DNA of 64,000 nt from Pseudomonadota bacterium (lineage in GTDB: Bacteria; Pseudomonadota; Alphaproteobacteria; Acetobacterales; Acetobacteraceae): positions 62,001-126,000 of the forward strand of contig JAJZSY010000002.1 of NCBI GenBank assembly GCA_021849425.1, given 5' to 3'. Shown one piece after another: positions 1 to 7,892 of the stretch (the stretch's first letter is position 1; the number at the start of each line of letters is the position of its first letter). A model generated the notes under the pieces. That model was not told the DNA's origin. It was given only the letters and a program-made list of their open reading frames with translations, and ran no database searches. Position numbers and translations under genes: made by a program.

Positions 1-1270
1 GGATCAGGCAGGGGACGAGGCAGCTCCAGCAGCGATGCGGATAGACGTAGCCGACCTCCTCATTGAAGGTGATGACCTTCTCGCCGCGATGGCTGAGCTT
101 GTCGTACCATTTCCAGAAATCGCCGAACTTGGCGTACCAGCCTGGATATTTCTGCTCGAACCACTCGAAGTCGGCCTCGCGCTGGGCCTCGATGCGCCAG
201 AAATTCACCGGCCAGCCGACAGCGAAGAACTGGGCGACGTGGTGGACGTAGAGCTTCTCGGTCAGGCGCTTCCAGGCGGCCTGGACATCGTCGTGGTGCA
301 CCTTGATGCCGTATTTCTCAAGCGGCAGCATGTAGGTCCGGTAGTAATCCTCGAAGATCCAGCGGTGCCACATCTCCGCGTAGGATTCCTTCGACTTGTC
401 GCGATTGGTGGTGCCGTATTCGATGAAGGTGCCGATCGCGGCATCGACGATCGCGTGGTTCTGCCAGAAGGCGTAGCGCAGGTCGCGCTCGAGCAGGAGA
501 TGATTTTCCGGCTCCTTGAGGGCGGCCATCAGCATCGAGTGTCCGTTGCCGATATGCCGACTCTCGTCGGACTGCACCGAGAGGAAGACGGTCGGCAGCG
601 CGTAGTCGCCGTTGCGGGCGGCCTCGGAGGGCATGGCAACGAACAGCGTGTTGGTGAAGGCGGTTTCAGCGACGACGGTGAGATACATGCAGGCGGCGGT
701 CATCGTGTCGCCGGTGATGAAGCCTTCGCCGAACTGCCGGCCGATCGTGGTCGCATAGCATTTGCCGAAGGCTTCCTCGGTGATGTCGAAGCCCGCCGGA
801 TCGATGTAGTTCTCCATGTACCATTTCTTGAGGTTCATCTGGATGGTCGAGTGACGGAATTCGTCGACCATCTGCATCGTGAACCCGGTGCGCAGGTCCT
901 CGCCCGGCGCGAGGCGGGCGACCATCGCCATCGAACGCGCCGCGGAGATTTCCGGGAAGGGGATGATCGCGAGGAACAGCTTCATCCATTCGACCCAGCG
1001 CGGCTCGACATTGCGGAACATGTCGCCGCGCAGCGCCGCATCGAGCGCGCCATAGACGCGGTTGTCCTTCTCTTCCTGCATCGGGAAGTAGGAGCGCAGC
1101 ACCTGCTTCATCGGATCGCGCGGGGCCTTGGTGATCTTGTAGTCGGTCGGGTAGGTCATCGCCTCCTGGACATAGGTCGGATTCCACCCGAGATCGGAAA
1201 TCTTCCTGGTTGCCTCGCCCACGGATATGCCGCGCTGCGAGGTGATCTTGTTGAGCGTCAGGGACGTCAT
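1..1270 (-). CDS. prmA: Propane/alkane monooxygenase hydroxylase large (alpha) subunit, 3' end cut by window edge
   Basis: Catalytic subunit of a soluble diiron monooxygenase that uses O2 to hydroxylate a short alkane (propane 2-monooxygenase type). About 423 codons are present from ATG 1270; family members are about 540 residues, so the C-terminus lies outside the window. The diiron ligands read as Glu107, Glu137/His140 (EFRH), Glu202 and Glu236/His239 (ESRH). The 30-, 62- and 34-residue spacings equal those of methane monooxygenase MmoX. Motifs such as QFGEGFITGD and FVAMPSEAARNGDY match PrmA/MimA proteins better than MmoX, as I remember those families. The ribosome site GGAGG sits 8-9 nt before the ATG. 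Reductase, beta and coupling subunits would be expected beyond the left edge. Transcription probably starts at the sigma-54 promoter at 1523-1538, giving a leader of about 240 nt. Substrate is inferred; acetone, butane or phenol are alternatives. Confidence 0.9.
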   Translation of the reverse strand, partial: MTSLTLNKITSQRGISVGEATRKISDLGWNPTYVQEAMTYPTDYKITKAPRDPMKQVLRSYFPMQEEKDNRVYGALDAALRGDMFRNVEPRWVEWMKLFLAIIPFPEISAARSMAMVARLAPGEDLRTGFTMQMVDEFRHSTIQMNLKKWYMENYIDPAGFDITEEAFGKCYATTIGRQFGEGFITGDTMTAACMYLTVVAETAFTNTLFVAMPSEAARNGDYALPTVFLSVQSDESRHIGNGHSMLMAALKEPENHLLLERDLRYAFWQNHAIVDAAIGTFIEYGTTNRDKSKESYAEMWHRWIFEDYYRTYMLPLEKYGIKVHHDDVQAAWKRLTEKLYVHHVAQFFAVGWPVNFWRIEAQREADFEWFEQKYPGWYAKFGDFWKWYDKLSHRGEKVITFNEEVGYVYPHRCWSCLVPCLI

Positions 1271-1522
1271 GTTTTCAAACCTCCACCTTGTTTGCGCCGC
1301 GGGTCCCGTGACCCGGGCGGAAAGCGGCTCAGGTGCCGCCGTGCGAGTTTCCGGATGGCCTGCGCCGCGTTGCGGGGCGTTGCCTGCCGGATCCCGGCAA
1401 AGGTCTTCGAACGATCCTGATCGGTGACAGCGCAGTGTCGCGCGAAGCCGATCCGGTTTCCTCCGTTCCTTCGTTCTTCTGGCACCGCGCCACGCGCGAT
1501 GATTTTCTTCTGGACAAATCAG

Positions 1523-1538
1523 AGCAAATCCCATGCCA
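1523..1538 (-). promoter_or_regulatory. Sigma-54 (RpoN) -24/-12 promoter of the monooxygenase operon
   Basis: On the minus strand this reads TGGCATGGGATTTGCT, against the consensus TGGCAC-G-N4-TTGCW: the -24 GG and -12 GC are 10 bp apart, as required, and the only deviation is T for C at the sixth position. It points at the monooxygenase gene, with predicted start near 1512. Related soluble methane and butane monooxygenases are sigma-54 dependent (MmoR, BmoR), which supports the call. The 1271-1510 leader also holds a small 6-bp hairpin at 1300-1315, just upstream of the ribosome site. Confidence 0.8.
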
Positions 1539-1613
1539 AAAGGCCGGCGGGATGGTCATGCGCACGAACGCGGCGGATATCGGAAAGTGCCGACGCAATG
1601 CCGCAACGCACAA

Positions 1614-1656
1614 TGTAAAGGAAATTTACATCTGTAAATGACAAGTGTAATACTTG
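1614..1656. promoter_or_regulatory. Cluster of three inverted repeats, candidate upstream activating sequence
   Basis: Three perfect inverted repeats follow one another: TGTAAA-N5-TTTACA (1614-1630), ATTTACA-TC-TGTAAAT (1624-1639) and CAAGT-N5-ACTTG (1642-1656). The first two share an arm. They lie about 75-130 bp upstream of the sigma-54 promoter, the usual place for enhancer-binding protein sites. They also lie just upstream of the divergent promoter at 1699-1728, so they could serve either side. The binding protein is unknown. Confidence 0.6.
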
Positions 1657-1698
1657 GCATATTTCAAATATAGATGAATATCACTTCAAACAATCAAA

Positions 1699-1783: not shown

Positions 1784-2257
1784 GTGCCCGACAAACAGCG
1801 GCCAGACATGGACCCGACATCTCCGGCGGCAGGCGGCGGAGACGTGACCGAGCAGCTGATCCGGCTGATGTCACGCGACCTGGTGTTCACCATGACCTTT
1901 CTCGGCGAAAGTCAGCACCGGATGCAGACGCATTTCGAGAGCTTCATCACCGCCTCGCTTGCCCGCGCCGGGATGAACCAGACCACCCACCCGATGATCC
2001 GGCTGTTCGTCGAGCGGCATGCCACGCTGTTGCGCGAGTTCGTGTTTTCCGGCGTCGCCCTGTCGCGACAGTTCGGGATCGGCGAGATCGAACATCTGAT
2101 CGGCGATGCTTCGTCGCTGCTGCGGATCGATATCTGGGACCAGCTGCGCAACCATATCGAGATGGCGGAGACGCGGTTCCGCGCGCAGATTCCTGACCTG
2201 CCAGGCCAGCTCGCGGATTTCGCCGCACCGGACGCGGCGCGGGGCGAAGCTCCATGA
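1784..2257 (+). CDS. Hypothetical protein, first gene of a four-gene operon
   Basis: A 157-residue, probably soluble and largely helical protein that I do not recognise. It has no signal peptide or membrane segment. After a polar N-terminus of about 25 residues, amphipathic segments follow (for example around RLMSRDLVFTMTFLGESQ and IEMAETRFRAQIPDL). GTG 1784 is chosen because GAGGAGG lies 6 nt upstream and the likely promoter at 1699-1728 excludes the earlier GTG at 1718. Its stop overlaps the next start (ATGA, 2254), so translation is probably coupled. It stands divergent from the monooxygenase gene, but no homology ties it to alkane oxidation. Confidence 0.75.
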   Translation: MPDKQRPDMDPTSPAAGGGDVTEQLIRLMSRDLVFTMTFLGESQHRMQTHFESFITASLARAGMNQTTHPMIRLFVERHATLLREFVFSGVALSRQFGIGEIEHLIGDASSLLRIDIWDQLRNHIEMAETRFRAQIPDLPGQLADFAAPDAARGEAP

Positions 2258-2562
2258 CCGGCGCCGATGCCGAGCGGCAGCAACTGCTGCGACGCAGGCT
2301 CGCCCTTGTCGGCGCCATCTCCGCGCTGAACGCCGAGGCGCTGCGCACCCTGCAGCAACTGGCCGGGCTCGAGATCGACATGCAGCGGCTTGAGGATGAT
2401 GCGCGCATGCAGGACTCGGGGTCGCTAAGTGCCGCAAACGGCGAAGCCGCCGCGCTGCGGGAGGCGCAGGCCGATTGCGCGGCGCGGATCGAGGCGGTGG
2501 AGGCGGTGGAGGCGGAAATGGCCGAGATCGACCGGCATCTGGCGGCTCTGGCGGGCAATTGA
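2254..2562 (+). CDS. Small coiled-coil protein, second gene of the unknown operon
   Basis: A 102-residue, mostly helical protein rich in Ala, Glu, Leu and Arg. Heptad-like stretches (RRRLALVGAISALNAEALR and IEAVEAVEAEMAEIDRHLA) indicate a coiled coil over most of its length, with a short Ser/Gly break near residue 55. It has no membrane segment or catalytic motif. The start overlaps the previous stop by 4 nt, and the WD40 gene follows after 16 nt. A coiled coil next to a beta-propeller suggests a scaffold or assembly role, which is inference only. Confidence 0.75.
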   Translation: MTGADAERQQLLRRRLALVGAISALNAEALRTLQQLAGLEIDMQRLEDDARMQDSGSLSAANGEAAALREAQADCAARIEAVEAVEAEMAEIDRHLAALAGN

Positions 2563-2578: not shown

Positions 2579-3709
2579 ATGAACCAGACCGCGACGAAAC
2601 ACCTTACGCTGTTCGACCTGCTGGGCCGCGCCTGGCCATGCGCGGCGCCGGCTGGCCCGCCGTGCTTCAGCGCCGATGGTGCCGCGGTCGCTTTCGGCTG
2701 CGCCGACGGCACGGTAACGGTCGTGCCGATCGAGGATCCGGAGCCACCGGAGACGCGGATCCGGGTGAGCGGCGATGTCGGCCAGACGACGATCCGCCCG
2801 CGCAGCCGCCCGGCACCGCCCCCCGCCGTATCCGCCGCGCTGCATCAGGATGTGCCCCCCATCGTCGCCGGCGATAAAAGCGGCTTCCTGGTCGGCGCCG
2901 GTGATGGCAGCGTGCTGACGCTCGGGCCGGATGGCGCGGTGCGCGGCACGCGCGCGCGGATCGGAACGCCGGTCGTCGCTCTCGACCACGCGCGGGCCGC
3001 CTCGCTCACGGCCATCGCCGGCGGGGACGCGGTGCGGCTGTGCCAGGGCGCGGGCGCGCTGTCCGATCCGCTCGCCGATGATGGCGAGGGCGAGGTCGTC
3101 GCCATCCGGTTATCGCCTGCGGGACGTCACCTCGCGATCGCGCGCGCGGAAAGCCTGAGCATCGTCGCACTCGATGGGAGCGGCAGGGCGCCGATGGTCT
3201 TCGGCCTGCTGTCGCGCCCGCTGTCGCTCGCGTGGCGCGACGACGGGGCCTGGCTCGCCTGCACGCTGGAGGCGGGCGGCTTCCTGATGGTCGATCACGC
3301 CGGGGGGCGCAGCGGCACCGTCACCGGCTTTCCGATGGCGACGCGCGATGCGGCCTGGAGCATCCCCGCCGCGTCGATCGTCGCCTCGGGCGCCTATCGC
3401 GTCGCCGCCTGGTCGATGGCGACGCCGCCGCTCGATGGCGACATGACCGGCGCGCTGGTGAGCGGCCGGGCCGGGCTGGTGGCGGTGGAGAGTATCGCCG
3501 CCCATCCGGCGCGGCCGCTGGTTGCGGCCGGCTACGCCAACGGCCAGATCCTGCTCGTCCAGATCGGCGGGCGGGATGAAGTGCTCATCCGCCCCGAGGG
3601 CGGCGCGGTGACAGCGCTCGGCTGGTCGGACGACGGCCACCAACTCGCCGCCGCTGGCGCGGATGGAATGGTGAGCATCACCACGTTTCCGGAGCGGATG
3701 TTCAAATGA
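2579..3709 (+). CDS. WD40-like beta-propeller protein
   Basis: A 376-residue protein with repeated blades of the form (sequence)-DG-hydrophobic-(A/G)-G-DG-x-V: FSADGAAVAFGCADGTVTV near the N-terminus, LSPAGRHLAIARAESLSIVAL and WRDDGAWLACTLEAGGFLMV in the middle, WSDDGHQLAAAGADGMVSI at the C-terminus. The first and last blades look complementary, consistent with ring closure. No signal peptide or membrane segment, so probably cytoplasmic. ATG 2579 follows GGGGAGA at 2566-2572. An earlier in-frame extension (from 2429) overlaps the upstream gene and lacks a ribosome site. WD40 proteins usually scaffold multiprotein assemblies; the partners here may be the three small neighbours. The stop overlaps an ATG at 3706. 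Confidence 0.8.
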   Translation: MNQTATKHLTLFDLLGRAWPCAAPAGPPCFSADGAAVAFGCADGTVTVVPIEDPEPPETRIRVSGDVGQTTIRPRSRPAPPPAVSAALHQDVPPIVAGDKSGFLVGAGDGSVLTLGPDGAVRGTRARIGTPVVALDHARAASLTAIAGGDAVRLCQGAGALSDPLADDGEGEVVAIRLSPAGRHLAIARAESLSIVALDGSGRAPMVFGLLSRPLSLAWRDDGAWLACTLEAGGFLMVDHAGGRSGTVTGFPMATRDAAWSIPAASIVASGAYRVAAWSMATPPLDGDMTGALVSGRAGLVAVESIAAHPARPLVAAGYANGQILLVQIGGRDEVLIRPEGGAVTALGWSDDGHQLAAAGADGMVSITTFPERMFK

Positions 3710-5227: not shown

Positions 5228-5674
5228 TCACGCGGCCGCCGCGAGGTGACGGCGCGCGAAATCGACGATGGCCTGCGCGCTCATGGCCCCGGCGCTCTGG
5301 CCGATCACCCGGCCGCCCCTGAGCAGGAACAGCGACGGGATGCCGCGCACGCCGAGGCGGGAGGAGACCTCCGGCGCCTCGTCGGCATTGAGTTTGAGCA
5401 GCCGGACCTCCGGTTCCAGGATCGCCGCCGCCTGCTCGAATTGCGGCGCCATCATCCGGCACGGTCCGCACCACGGCGCCCAGACATCGAGCAGAAGGGG
5501 AATCCCGTCCCGCTCGGCGTGGCGCTCGAAGCCGGCCTGGTCGATCGCGACGGGATGGCCGTCGAACAGCTTGCGATGGCAGGCGCCGCATTGCGCGGCG
5601 CGGGCCGGGCGCGCCGGCGGGATGCGGTTCACCGCGCCGCAATGCGGACAGACGATATGGGTCGCGTCAGCCAT
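5228..5674 (-). CDS. trxC: Thioredoxin 2 (zinc-containing TrxC type)
   Basis: A cytoplasmic disulfide reductase of 148 residues. The N-terminal zinc-ribbon motif CPHCGAVN (about residue 9) and CGACHRKL (about residue 29) distinguish TrxC from TrxA. The active site WCGPC lies near residue 68 and the cis-proline in GIPSLFLL near residue 116. The start overlaps the end of sqr by 8 nt, so the two genes are very probably co-transcribed. Thioredoxin can reduce protein persulfides, which fits the sulfide context. Confidence 0.93.
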   Translation of the reverse strand: MADATHIVCPHCGAVNRIPPARPARAAQCGACHRKLFDGHPVAIDQAGFERHAERDGIPLLLDVWAPWCGPCRMMAPQFEQAAAILEPEVRLLKLNADEAPEVSSRLGVRGIPSLFLLRGGRVIGQSAGAMSAQAIVDFARRHLAAAA

Positions 5675-6974
5675 GGCCCGCTCCTTTCGCTGACTTGCGG
5701 TCGTTGTGATGAAGCTTGTGGATATTGAGCTGCTTCATCAGGAAGCGCTCGTAGAAGGGCTCGCTCTCGCCGGCGCGGATCTTGCGGAGGAAATATTTCT
5801 CGAAGCCGATCTTGGCGAGATGCACCCAGGCGCCGGTCGAGGCCCAGTTGACGTCGCGCGGCGGGATCTGCGGCTGGGCGACGAAGGCCACGCCGCCATC
5901 GCCGAAATCGGCGAGGCAGACGGCGTTCCACGTCGCCCGCGCGTGCGGCGCCTCGCCGCGCAGCAGCGCGCCGATGTTATGCGCCGTGGCGGTGACCATC
6001 GACTCGATCATGAACCCGGTTTTCGGCACGCCGACCGGCACCGGCGTCTTGCCCACGGGCGGGATCGCGACACAGACGCCGACGCCGAAGACGTTCGGAT
6101 AGGCCGGATTGCGCTGGTGCTCGTCGATCAGCACAAAGCCGCGCGGATTGACCAGCCCCTCGATGCCGCGCAGCGCCGGCACGCCGCGAAAGGCGGGCAG
6201 GAACATGGTGAAGCGGCTGGGCAGGTCGTGGGTCGCGATCGTCTGGCCGTCGGTGTCGACTTCCTCGGCCACGACCTTTTCCGCGTCCACCGCGGCGATC
6301 TTCGCGTTGGTGATCCACTTGATGTGGCGATGGCGCAACTCGCTCTCCATCAGCGACTTGGTGTCGCCCACGCCATCGAGCCCGAGATGGCCGATATAGG
6401 GTTCGGAGGTGACGAAGGTCATCGGCACCTTGCTGCGCAGGCGGCGCTTGCGCAGCTCGCGATCGAGGATGAAGGCGAATTCGTAGGCCGGGCCGAAGCA
6501 GGATGCGCCCTGCACCGCGCCGACCACGACCGGCCCCGGATTGGCGCAGAAGCGCTCGAACGCCTCGAAGGCGGACGCGGCGTGATCGGTCTGGCAGATC
6601 GAGACCGTGTTCCGCTCCGGGCCGCAGCCGGGAATCTCGTCGAAGGCGAGTTCGGGGCCAGTAGCGATGATCAGATAGTCGTAGGGGATGCTGTCGCCGC
6701 CATTCAGCTCGACGCGGTTTTCGGCAGGGTGCACACGGGCGGCGCCCTCGGTGCGGAAGGTGATGTTCTTGCGGCGCGTCACCTTGTCGAGCGAGACCTC
6801 GATATCCGCGCGGTCGCGCCAGCCGACGGCGACCCAGGGGTTCGACGGCGTGAACTGGAACGTGTTCCGCTCGCCGATCAGGGTAATCCTGTCTTCCGGC
6901 CGGATCTGTCCCGCGGTTTCGAACGCGGCGAGCGTGCCGCCGAGCCCCGCGCCAAGGACCACAATCTCTGCCAT
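5667..6974 (-). CDS. sqr: Sulfide:quinone oxidoreductase
   Basis: A peripheral membrane flavoprotein that oxidises sulfide to sulfane sulfur and passes electrons to quinone. It has 435 residues, the usual length. The N-terminal FAD motif is VVLGAGLGGT. The three redox cysteines fall at Cys127 (SICQ), Cys159 (GASCFGPAYEF) and Cys353 (NAVCLADFGD), nearly the same positions as in the Acidithiobacillus ferrooxidans enzyme, which it resembles throughout (VTSEPYIGHLG, DEHQRNP, GVPKTGFMIE). It heads the sqr-trxC unit, divergent from the ArsR gene. An FNR/FixK-type box at 7060-7073 lies at the right distance from a TTAACAT -10-like element near 7032, suggesting activation at low oxygen; the ArsR repressor may add sulfide control. 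Confidence 0.95.
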   Translation of the reverse strand: MAEIVVLGAGLGGTLAAFETAGQIRPEDRITLIGERNTFQFTPSNPWVAVGWRDRADIEVSLDKVTRRKNITFRTEGAARVHPAENRVELNGGDSIPYDYLIIATGPELAFDEIPGCGPERNTVSICQTDHAASAFEAFERFCANPGPVVVGAVQGASCFGPAYEFAFILDRELRKRRLRSKVPMTFVTSEPYIGHLGLDGVGDTKSLMESELRHRHIKWITNAKIAAVDAEKVVAEEVDTDGQTIATHDLPSRFTMFLPAFRGVPALRGIEGLVNPRGFVLIDEHQRNPAYPNVFGVGVCVAIPPVGKTPVPVGVPKTGFMIESMVTATAHNIGALLRGEAPHARATWNAVCLADFGDGGVAFVAQPQIPPRDVNWASTGAWVHLAKIGFEKYFLRKIRAGESEPFYERFLMKQLNIHKLHHNDRKSAKGAGHG

Positions 6975-7059
6975 GCTTTCCTGCCTTTCCGAACGCTCCG
7001 GCGAAGGCGGCGCTCCGCCGCGCCCGGGGCGATGTTAATTGGTTTGCGGCGACGCCGGC

Positions 7060-7073
7060 TTGACCTGGATCAA
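7060..7073. promoter_or_regulatory. FNR/FixK-type box upstream of sqr
   Basis: TTGACCTGGATCAA (minus: TTGATCCAGGTCAA) fits the anaerobox TTGAT-N4-(A/G)TCAA. Its centre is 41-42 bp upstream of a start predicted near 7025 by the -10-like TTAACAT on the minus strand. That is class II activator geometry for sqr-trxC. Confidence 0.65.
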
Positions 7074-7140
7074 CGCCCGCGCGGACAGCCGGGAGAACAC
7101 TGCCGCTGCGGTGCGGCCGGACGTTCCGGCGCCGCCACAA

Positions 7141-7170
7141 TTGACAATATATGCATATATTCGTATATAC
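7141..7170 (+). promoter_or_regulatory. Promoter with embedded AT-rich palindrome before the ArsR gene; probably leaderless
   Basis: TTGACA (7141-7146), exactly 17 nt, and TATATA (7164-7169) form a near-consensus promoter. The spacer is occupied by a perfect 14-bp palindrome, ATATATGCATATAT (7147-7160), followed by GTATATAC (7163-7170). AT-rich palindromes of this kind are bound by BigR/YgaV-type repressors, so autorepression is likely. The predicted start (7175-7177) coincides with the ATG at 7177 and no ribosome site is present. Confidence 0.75.
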
Positions 7171-7176
7171 GCAAGT

Positions 7177-7533
7177 ATGAAACTGGATGTCGACGCGATG
7201 AACCTGGCGGCCGATGAAGCCAGCGATCTGCTGAAATCGCTGGCCAACCGGCATCGCCTGCTCATTCTCTGCCAGCTGCTCGACGGCGAGCGGTCGGTGG
7301 GCGAGCTGGTCGCGTTCCTGCAGATCCGCGACAGCGCGGTCTCCCAGCACCTGGCGCTGCTGCGCAAGGACGGGCTGGTGACCGCACGGCGCGAGGGGCA
7401 GAGCATCCGGTATTCCATCGCCAGCGCACCGGCCCGCACCGTGATTGCGGCCCTTGCCGGAATTTATTGTAGTCCGGAGGGTGCGACCTGCGCGGCGCCC
7501 GATCCTTCATCGACAACGGAGATTTCGACATGA
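7177..7533 (+). CDS. ArsR-family repressor, BigR/SqrR persulfide-sensor type
   Basis: A 118-residue winged-helix regulator. The recognition helix lies around RDSAVSQHLALLRKDGLV. Cys32 (LCQLLDGE) and Cys98 (GIYCSPEG) are 66 residues apart, the same spacing as the persulfide-sensing pair Cys41/Cys107 of Rhodobacter SqrR; a third cysteine is at 105. No arsenic- or zinc-type CxC motif is seen. It probably represses its own operon and perhaps sqr when persulfide is absent. ATG 7177 sits at the predicted transcription start, so the mRNA appears leaderless. The stop overlaps the rhodanese start (ATGA). Confidence 0.88.
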   Translation: MKLDVDAMNLAADEASDLLKSLANRHRLLILCQLLDGERSVGELVAFLQIRDSAVSQHLALLRKDGLVTARREGQSIRYSIASAPARTVIAALAGIYCSPEGATCAAPDPSSTTEIST

Positions 7534-7892
7534 CGACACCTTCACCTCTGCGCGACCTCGACCCTGCCACCGTGCATGACGACCTGCGCGCCGGCCGCAT
7601 CCTGCTGGTCGATGTGCGCGAACCGCAGGAATTCGCGGTGGAGCGCATTCATGGCGCGATGCTGTTTCCGCTCTCCACCTTCGATCCGGCGATGTTGCCG
7701 CAGGACCCCGGCAAGCCGATCGTGTTTCAGTGCGGCTCGGGCAAGCGCTCGGCGATGGCGGCGGCGAAGTGTCGCGAGGCCGGCCTTGCGGTGAATGCCC
7801 ATCTCGCCGGCGGCATGATGGCGTGGAAAGCGGCGGGGATGCCGTATGTCGCGCTCGATTCCGCCACCGGCCAGGTGATCGACCGCCGCTGA
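7530..7892 (+). CDS. Single-domain rhodanese (sulfurtransferase)
   Basis: A 120-residue cytoplasmic rhodanese. The catalytic loop is QCGSGKRSA with Cys68, and the CH2A-like signature is LVDVREPQEFAVERIHGA. It would carry sulfane sulfur from persulfides. It resembles the N-terminal domain of YgaP; the matching membrane domain is a separate gene at 4895-5098. Translation is coupled to the ArsR gene by a 4-nt overlap, with GGAGA upstream. It precedes the RND adaptor gene by 39 nt, so the four genes probably form one operon. Confidence 0.9.
   Translation: MTTPSPLRDLDPATVHDDLRAGRILLVDVREPQEFAVERIHGAMLFPLSTFDPAMLPQDPGKPIVFQCGSGKRSAMAAAKCREAGLAVNAHLAGGMMAWKAAGMPYVALDSATGQVIDRR

Follow-up and report, generated by a model that had tools for sequence, protein, structure and literature searches.

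BmoR and MimR are sigma-54 activators that act in the RpoN-dependent control of monooxygenases. An excerpt of PMC6778391 presents MmoR of Methylocella as a sigma-54 activator for monooxygenase control. The locus analyzed here has in common with RpoN/MmoR-type control a -24/-12 promoter, upstream palindromes and a GAF-AAA-Fis activator with a GAFTGA loop. By description, it differs from the MmoR, BmoR and MimR systems in its TGTAA-N7-TTACA element, in the SRPTLYR helix of its activator and in the location of the activator gene on another contig.

The enzymes closest to ours are those of the prmABCD/mimABCD systems (SDIMO groups 5/6), represented by the PrMO of Methylocella and by actinobacterial MimABCD with MimG and an amidohydrolase; the A-B-C-D set is shared with them. 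As described in an excerpt of PMC7176365, MimABCD of actinobacteria is involved in acetone hydroxylation and the Mim cluster includes a GroEL-like protein, an alcohol dehydrogenase and an amidohydrolase. The GroEL-like chaperone and the amidohydrolase are common to that cluster and the operon examined here. In contrast to known prm/mim systems, the activator and the alcohol dehydrogenase were found on other contigs, and in contrast to Methylocella, the operon is preceded by a structured leader, the model of which had no match in the Methylocella locus (L191). In enzyme and control the locus represents a known kind in well-preserved form, and the leader is the variant part. The leader, absent from the first-pass annotation of this DNA, is also the most novel feature of the locus.

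The window is the whole stretch analyzed, 64,000 nucleotides corresponding to bases 62001-126000 of contig C54 in a genome of 2.9 Mb; the assembly is 94% complete and comprises 65 contigs, in which location on another contig carries no linkage information. For comparison we used 80 fetched relatives out of 533 similar stretches found, a host-family sample of 200 genomes in which the own genome is counted, and 14 host-family loci, a set that includes three copies from the own genus. The features of the locus are listed in Table 1.

Table 1. Features at the start of the prmA operon and in its divergent neighborhood (window coordinates)
Feature	Position	Strand	Basis or remark
prmA/mimA-type hydroxylase alpha subunit, 5' part	1..1270	-	ORF, Pfam, phmmer, diiron ligands
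Ribosome-binding sequence of prmA, GGTGGAGG	1280..1287	-	GGAG invariant in alignment A2
Whole match of leader RNA model R1	1377..1516	-	E = 1.9e-20 in own genome
Leader motif 2, ACCTTTGCC	1396..1404	-	CCTTT is the 3' side of the P2 closing helix
Leader motif 1, AAGAACGAAGGA	1467..1478	-	GAAGG (1468-1472) pairs with CCTTT (1399-1403)
5' hairpin P1 of leader	1483..1501	-	Covaries across relatives
Expected transcription start	1512	-	12 bases from the -12 C, inferred from sequence
RpoN (-24/-12) promoter, TGGCATGGGATTTGCT	1523..1538	-	Exact consensus; conserved in relatives
Probable activator site, ATGTAAA-N5-TTTACAT	1613..1631	.	Perfect, arms 7; conserved as TGTAA-N7-TTACA
Palindrome ATTTACA-N2-TGTAAAT	1624..1639	.	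Arms 7; overlaps 1613-1631
Weaker palindrome CAAGT-N5-ACTTG around a TGTAA half-site	1642..1656	.	Arms 5
Palindrome ATATTT-N-AAATAT	1659..1671	.	Arms 6
p17, 149 aa, unknown family	1808..2257	+	Divergent neighbor in 68/80 relatives, 0/14 host-family loci
p10, 102 aa, unknown family	2254..2562	+	In 59/80 relatives, 0/14 host-family loci
WD40-repeat protein	2579..3709	+	tblastn match (E <= 1e-3) in 80/80 relatives, 12/14 host-family loci

A propane monooxygenase-type operon

The prmA reading frame begins at the ATG at 1270 on the minus strand, crosses the left edge of the window at base 1 and continues for another 398 bases, giving a full-length PrmA of 555 aa. The protein matched the Pfam family Phenol_Hydrox (E = 4e-61) and the solved MMO alpha chains (phmmer, 2e-64). 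All six diiron ligands are kept (E107, E137, H140, E202, E236 and H239), and the spacings between the glutamates, 30/65/34, are the same as those between E114, E144, E209 and E243 of MmoX, which we take as the residue numbers for this comparison. The description of a hydroxylase with six diiron ligands at methane-monooxygenase spacing in the first-pass annotation was thus confirmed. The same annotation had pointed to the DNA left of the window as the place to look for prmB, prmC, prmD and GroEL, and had named missing subunit genes among the observations that would speak against it. On the minus strand the operon runs in the order alpha subunit (555 aa), reductase (364 aa), beta subunit (351 aa), coupling protein (122 aa), amidohydrolase (354 aa) and GroEL (544 aa), so that the remaining subunits are all present left of the window. 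The reductase is of the 2Fe-2S/FAD/NAD type and the coupling protein of the MmoB/DmpM type; Pfam analysis of the operon revealed Phenol_Hydrox twice, a Fer2/FAD/NAD reductase and MmoB_DmpM, with all subunits in one operon.

Two minor features of the distal part were observed. The amidohydrolase and GroEL genes are separated here by only 45 bases. Plasmids of Aminobacter, Bradyrhizobium and Caballeronia carry an 'iron-sulfur cluster assembly protein' gene in this gap (L194 16564-17364), the best own match of which is on contig C18 and not in the operon. The gene on the opposite strand past GroEL looks unrelated, as judged by eye from its sequence.

Comparison with plasmid records by tblastn revealed PrmA identities of 94% to Aminobacter, 76% to Methylocella tundrae and 64% to Rhodococcus. 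The NCBIfam model for MimD scored 109 bits, below its cut-off of 150, and no NCBIfam family was detected for the alpha subunit at E <= 0.01. The MimD score below cut-off, taken with the identities of the relatives, assigns the enzyme by sequence to the propane-monooxygenase type (prm/mimABCD), as a relative and not as a certified equivalog. Its predicted and most likely activity is the oxidation of propane and/or of the corresponding alcohol and ketone, 2-propanol and acetone, each of these three C3 compounds being a plausible candidate substrate in this host. The first-pass annotation was right about the parts of the locus but went too far in predicting gaseous-alkane oxidation.

An RpoN promoter preceded by palindromes

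A near-perfect RpoN promoter facing the hydroxylase had been proposed from the letters of the window. The sequence TGGCATGGGATTTGCT proved to be an exact match, and the only zero-mismatch occurrence of TGGCAYG-N4-TTGCW in the 64 kb. Sites with up to two mismatches numbered 12 compared with 16.6 expected, showing no excess over chance, and single weaker RpoN-like sites in the window are therefore meaningless. When sites with at least 10 of the 12 consensus letters were sought within 700 bases upstream of prmA, one faced prmA in 72 of the 80 relatives and none was found on the reverse strand (0/80); shuffled controls of the 80 loci gave a mean of 1.4 and a largest value of 6 in 50 shuffles. For the host family, a site faced prmA at 11 of 14 loci and lay on the reverse strand at 2 of 14. 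We also considered whether the divergent genes use an RpoN promoter in common with prmA and rejected this, as a 10/12 site facing p17 was present in none of the 68 loci with p17.

Three perfect inverted repeats had been reported upstream of this promoter. Their presence was upheld and their number was revised to four, two of them overlapping, at 75-133 bp from the -24 end. This palindrome count was reached by 0 of 500 same-composition shuffles, yet when the 64 kb were divided into 457 windows of 140 bp, 5 of these held as many. The element TGTAAAN5TTTACA with up to two mismatches occurred once in the window compared with 0.03 expected. In its conserved form, TGTAA-N7-TTACA, it was found upstream of prmA in 50 of 80 relatives, where shuffled controls averaged 0.04 and never exceeded 1, and in none of the 14 host-family prmA promoters; within the own assembly it occurs in one place only, the prmA promoter. 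Tandem half-sites similar to the overlapping palindrome were seen by eye in relatives. In host-family promoters, repeats of the TGTCGCA/TGTCCCA type seemingly replace TGTAA (upstream regions of L114-L127, by eye).

A candidate activator on another contig

RpoN is encoded in the own genome (Sigma54_DBD on C56, E = 1.2e-64), which also gave nine strong and three weak Sigma54_activat matches; one of the nine is on C54, approximately 97 kb from prmA. The DNA left of the window had also been named as the place to look for an acoR/bmoR-like regulator. A search with six activators gave no match in the reading frames of the 16-kb region that surrounds the operon start (L003), and the likely regulator is instead located on contig C20. 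This protein (L089, identical to L097) is GAF-AAA-Fis by Pfam and contains a GAFTGA loop in its sequence. Counting reading frames of at least 300 aa only, it was the best own match of the locus activator in 42 of 80 relatives (47.6-65.7% identity), and in most of these 42 loci the activator gene lies behind GroEL on the opposite strand. Among the 200 family genomes, own included, 15 carried PrmA, 19 an L089-like activator (E <= 1e-100) and 14 both. The first-pass annotation had called gaseous-alkane oxidation unexpected in the acidophilic heterotroph that the window suggested; the gene is present in those 15 genomes of the family. PrmA and the activator were likewise on different contigs in three genomes (G012, G018 and G039).

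The recognition helix SRPTLYR was found in the own activator and in 56 of 56 activators of fetched loci with an identity of 47% or more and an alignment that reaches the C-terminus. It was found in 0 of 18 host-family activators, five of which come from genomes without a PrmA match. Since the rhizobial type has both SRPTLYR and the TGTAA palindrome and the host family has neither, operator and helix differ together. The own activator was 60-66% identical to those of L194, L006, L008, L012 and L055, which were 65-77% identical among themselves, while the PrmA proteins of these five loci were 91-96% identical; the activators of two more distant relatives were 48-60% identical to the own. The identity of only 48-66% to the relatives' activators is a point against the proposed control, though compatible with co-transfer. 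As judged from these comparisons, the C20 activator is likely to be the cognate regulator of prmA.

Control of prmA by a different activator, for example L092 on C18, is improbable. Eighteen relatives have an L092-like activator, which lies across prmA at 2.3-4.8 kb of the fetched locus, and L092 adjoins an alcohol dehydrogenase gene in the own genome. However, the identity between L092 and these 18 proteins is only 38-42%, compared with 48-66% for the C20 protein in the 42 of 80 loci where it is the best own match; the helix of the relatives' L092-like proteins that were examined is a different one (SRTT); and the alcohol dehydrogenase gene on C18 has an RpoN-like site of its own. The earlier proposal of control by RpoN and an enhancer-binding activator, here the C20 protein, agrees with an arrangement conserved in relatives, an encoded RpoN and the presence of a likely cognate GAF-AAA-Fis activator.

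Signs of horizontal acquisition

In a PrmA tree of 61 rows, a 100/99 branch separated the own sequence and 38 rhizobial-type rows from 14 host-family rows, with eight further rows outside this 39-versus-14 count. The own PrmA lies in the Rhizobiales/Rhodobacterales group, apart from Methylocella PrmA. It was 80-82% identical to host-family copies and 95% identical to the best rhizobial loci. The G+C content was 0.59-0.64 from prmA to the amidohydrolase gene, 0.68-0.71 for GroEL and 0.64-0.74 for the flanks; as GroEL is like the flanks, composition backs import of the first operon part only. Taken together, the tree, the identities and the composition form a pattern of acquisition from a rhizobial-type donor, and by these sequence criteria the operon looks horizontally acquired. 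PrmA matches were present in 28 plasmid records, of which 5 are typed as conjugative, that of Bradyrhizobium among them, and 11 as mobilizable.

In Aminobacter, the Fe-S assembly gene, an aquaporin gene, the activator and an alcohol dehydrogenase are linked. The end of the own contig C18 (L098 6470-11113) carries the activator L092, an alcohol dehydrogenase (66%), a second amidohydrolase and the Fe-S assembly gene, which shows 48% identity over its first half and runs to the contig end. An RpoN-like site with 11 of 12 letters is located ahead of the alcohol dehydrogenase gene, at about 8521-8536 of L098. The C18 cluster is possibly the rest of the pathway.

A conserved leader RNA upstream of prmA

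The leader from promoter to start is approximately 240 nt long. When the upstream DNA of 28 sequences, own included, was aligned, the leader was found to contain two stretches conserved as strictly as the promoter, AAGAACGAAGG and ACCTTTGCC, with varying letters around them. The first, AAGAACGAAGG, was exact in 78 of 80 loci, had one mismatch in L080 and was absent in L043; the second near-invariant leader motif is ACCUUUGCC. The possibility that the leader is a coding extension of prmA was rejected on the basis of an in-frame stop in 68 of 80 leaders, the own leader being among the 12 without one.

We built a leader RNA model, R1, on 42 sequences, own included, and compared covariation in this alignment, on a structure predicted from the alignment itself, with shuffles that carry no kinship correction. 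Paired cells amounted to 86.1% compared with 77.3% in shuffles (0/500 as high), a percentage biased upward because the structure was predicted from the same alignment. Double-change cells numbered 82 compared with 35.8 in shuffles (0/500 as high) and 17-39 in slid structures, and the covariation score was 0.289 compared with 0.148 (reached by 0/500). Shuffles equaled the number of pair types in 5 of 500 cases, and the 10 double-change pairs observed were reached in 103 of 500. The P2 segment folded better than its shuffles (mean z -2.39, with 50 of 80 below -2); for P1 the mean z was only -1.55, with 22 of 80 below -2.

The helix that closes P2 is nearly unvaried: among 80 leaders (own and 79 loci), GAAGG was found in 79, and CCUUU in 78 with CCUUC in the other 2. 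This constancy, and the rigidity in sequence of motifs lying close behind a promoter, would also be expected if conservation acted at the DNA level, with motifs 1 and 2 binding further regulators and the hairpins as by-products. We regard such an origin as very unlikely, since the distance between the two motifs varies widely (P2 segment length 55-111 nt across leaders), the pairing of P1 is kept while its sequence changes, and the Bradyrhizobium leader L190 alters both sides of the closing helix, from GAAGG:CCUUU to GAGGG:CCCUU (pairing read by eye). L190 was outside the training of R1 and was matched at E = 6.2e-8; together with the compensatory change, this match is the strongest independent point for the leader structure. 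A further leader outside the training set, L194, was matched at E = 1.9e-28. The alignments support the interpretation of the leader as a conserved folded RNA element tied to the prmA operon.

Whole-genome scans were performed on the genomes behind 38 of the 80 loci and revealed 37 strong R1 matches, one per genome, all ending no more than 300 bases upstream of prmA; with the own genome, strong matches in whole-genome scans numbered 38. The genome of L043 (Rhodoblastus, PrmA 92%) gave no R1 match, and its operon is without the leader. Twelve further matches were weak (E 0.006-0.83). Nine of these were inspected and are taken as chance, as AAGAACGAAGG was absent from the inspected stretches and most lay inside long reading frames. 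A scan of 385 class genomes with stricter filters gave one match, the own; only 3 of the 385 have PrmA. No R1 match was detected at prmA of the 14 host-family loci, Methylocella, Caballeronia, Azospirillum or Rhodococcus. A second exact AAGAACGAAGG in the own genome, on C23, was discarded as it lies at the end of a reading frame and has no R1 match. Use of the leader at several genes, like an ordinary riboswitch, was also rejected, strong R1 matches in the scanned genomes being found just upstream of prmA only. In L148, a distant prmA locus, a weak match (1261-1334, E = 0.13) lies right behind the RpoN site; the hairpin followed by AAACAAGGA at this position may be a divergent form of the leader.

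Three leaders searched against Rfam 15 gave no match above a family threshold; one overlap, P11 on the L006 leader, was at chance level (13 bits, threshold 70, E = 1.9). Like Rfam cis-regulatory RNAs, the present element is a 5' leader in which variable stems are flanked by conserved single-stranded motifs; it differs from them in having no family above threshold and strong model matches only at prmA. In the open-licence literature, no such leader was found reported, propane monooxygenase was not joined with a riboswitch or a relevant untranslated region, and the motif letters led only to papers looking unrelated by title and abstract. The chances appear about even that the leader represents a new cis-regulatory RNA family specific to Rhizobiales/Rhodobacterales propane-monooxygenase operons, one that would add translational or stability control above RpoN, possibly by metabolite or protein sensing, and would move with the operon between families.

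Proposed role of the leader in operon control

We consider it probable that the locus is an acquired prm/mimABCD operon for C3 substrates, controlled by RpoN and the C20 activator and equipped with a structured leader that acts post-transcriptionally. The operon prmABCD-amidohydrolase-groEL would be read leftwards from the RpoN promoter. The C20 activator (GAF-AAA+-Fis) would sense substrate or product, bind TGTAA-N7-TTACA and neighboring half-sites 75-118 bp upstream, and drive RpoN polymerase to start near the expected position. The transcript is predicted to open with the leader, consisting of P1, a single-stranded AAGAAC and P2 closed by GAAGG:CCUUU, and the leader would then act after transcription start, on the translation or stability of the prmA message. 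The alcohol dehydrogenase is possibly supplied by the separate C18 cluster.

Among the ways in which such a leader could act, a riboswitch or RNA thermometer in which the tail after motif 2 masks the ribosome site of prmA is doubtful. In 48 leaders, tail and ribosome site paired better with their own partner (2 of 5000 swaps were as good, in a swap test without kinship correction), and the matching letters differ from clade to clade. However, in partition functions for 36 leaders the tail accounted on average for 0.28 of the ribosome-site pairing, and the mean unpaired share of this site was 0.32 both before and after the tail was covered. Moreover, strong leader matches were found at one operon only, whereas most riboswitches occur at more than one. 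Ribosome-site masking by the leader is weakly supported. It is also rather unlikely that the leader merely stabilizes the message as a 5' hairpin with no regulatory input; this would agree with the position of P1 directly at the predicted 5' end, but gives no reason for the near-invariance of AAGAACGAAGG and ACCUUUGCC, which flank a stem segment of 55-111 nt.

If the leader does exert post-transcriptional control, it would place diiron monooxygenase genes under a second layer of control. Such enzymes matter for gas seeps, for the co-metabolic degradation of pollutants and for the turnover of C3 ketones, and the leader is open to bench tests in harmless, culturable bacteria such as Aminobacter or Mesorhizobium. 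Because helix (SRPT) and operator (TGTAA) change as a pair, they may be useful as a regulator-operator combination in biosensors. From the acquired operon it further seems that joint transfer of promoter, leader and activator between families is possible, even with the activator on another contig.

Divergent neighbors of the operon

The predicted fold of p17 had a pLDDT of 76 and a best PDB match at E = 1.4; in Pfam searches at E <= 1, any one family was hit by at most 3 of the 23 members, with a best E of 0.008. The WD40-repeat protein looks, from its co-occurrence with prmA, like an uncharacterized partner of this enzyme type; in the open-licence literature, propane monooxygenase was not joined with WD40. 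Further into the window, translations read by eye revealed ArsR-like regulator and rhodanese-like genes at 7039-7533 and 7530-7892 on the plus strand, and a sulfide:quinone-reductase-like gene at 5667-6974 on the minus strand.
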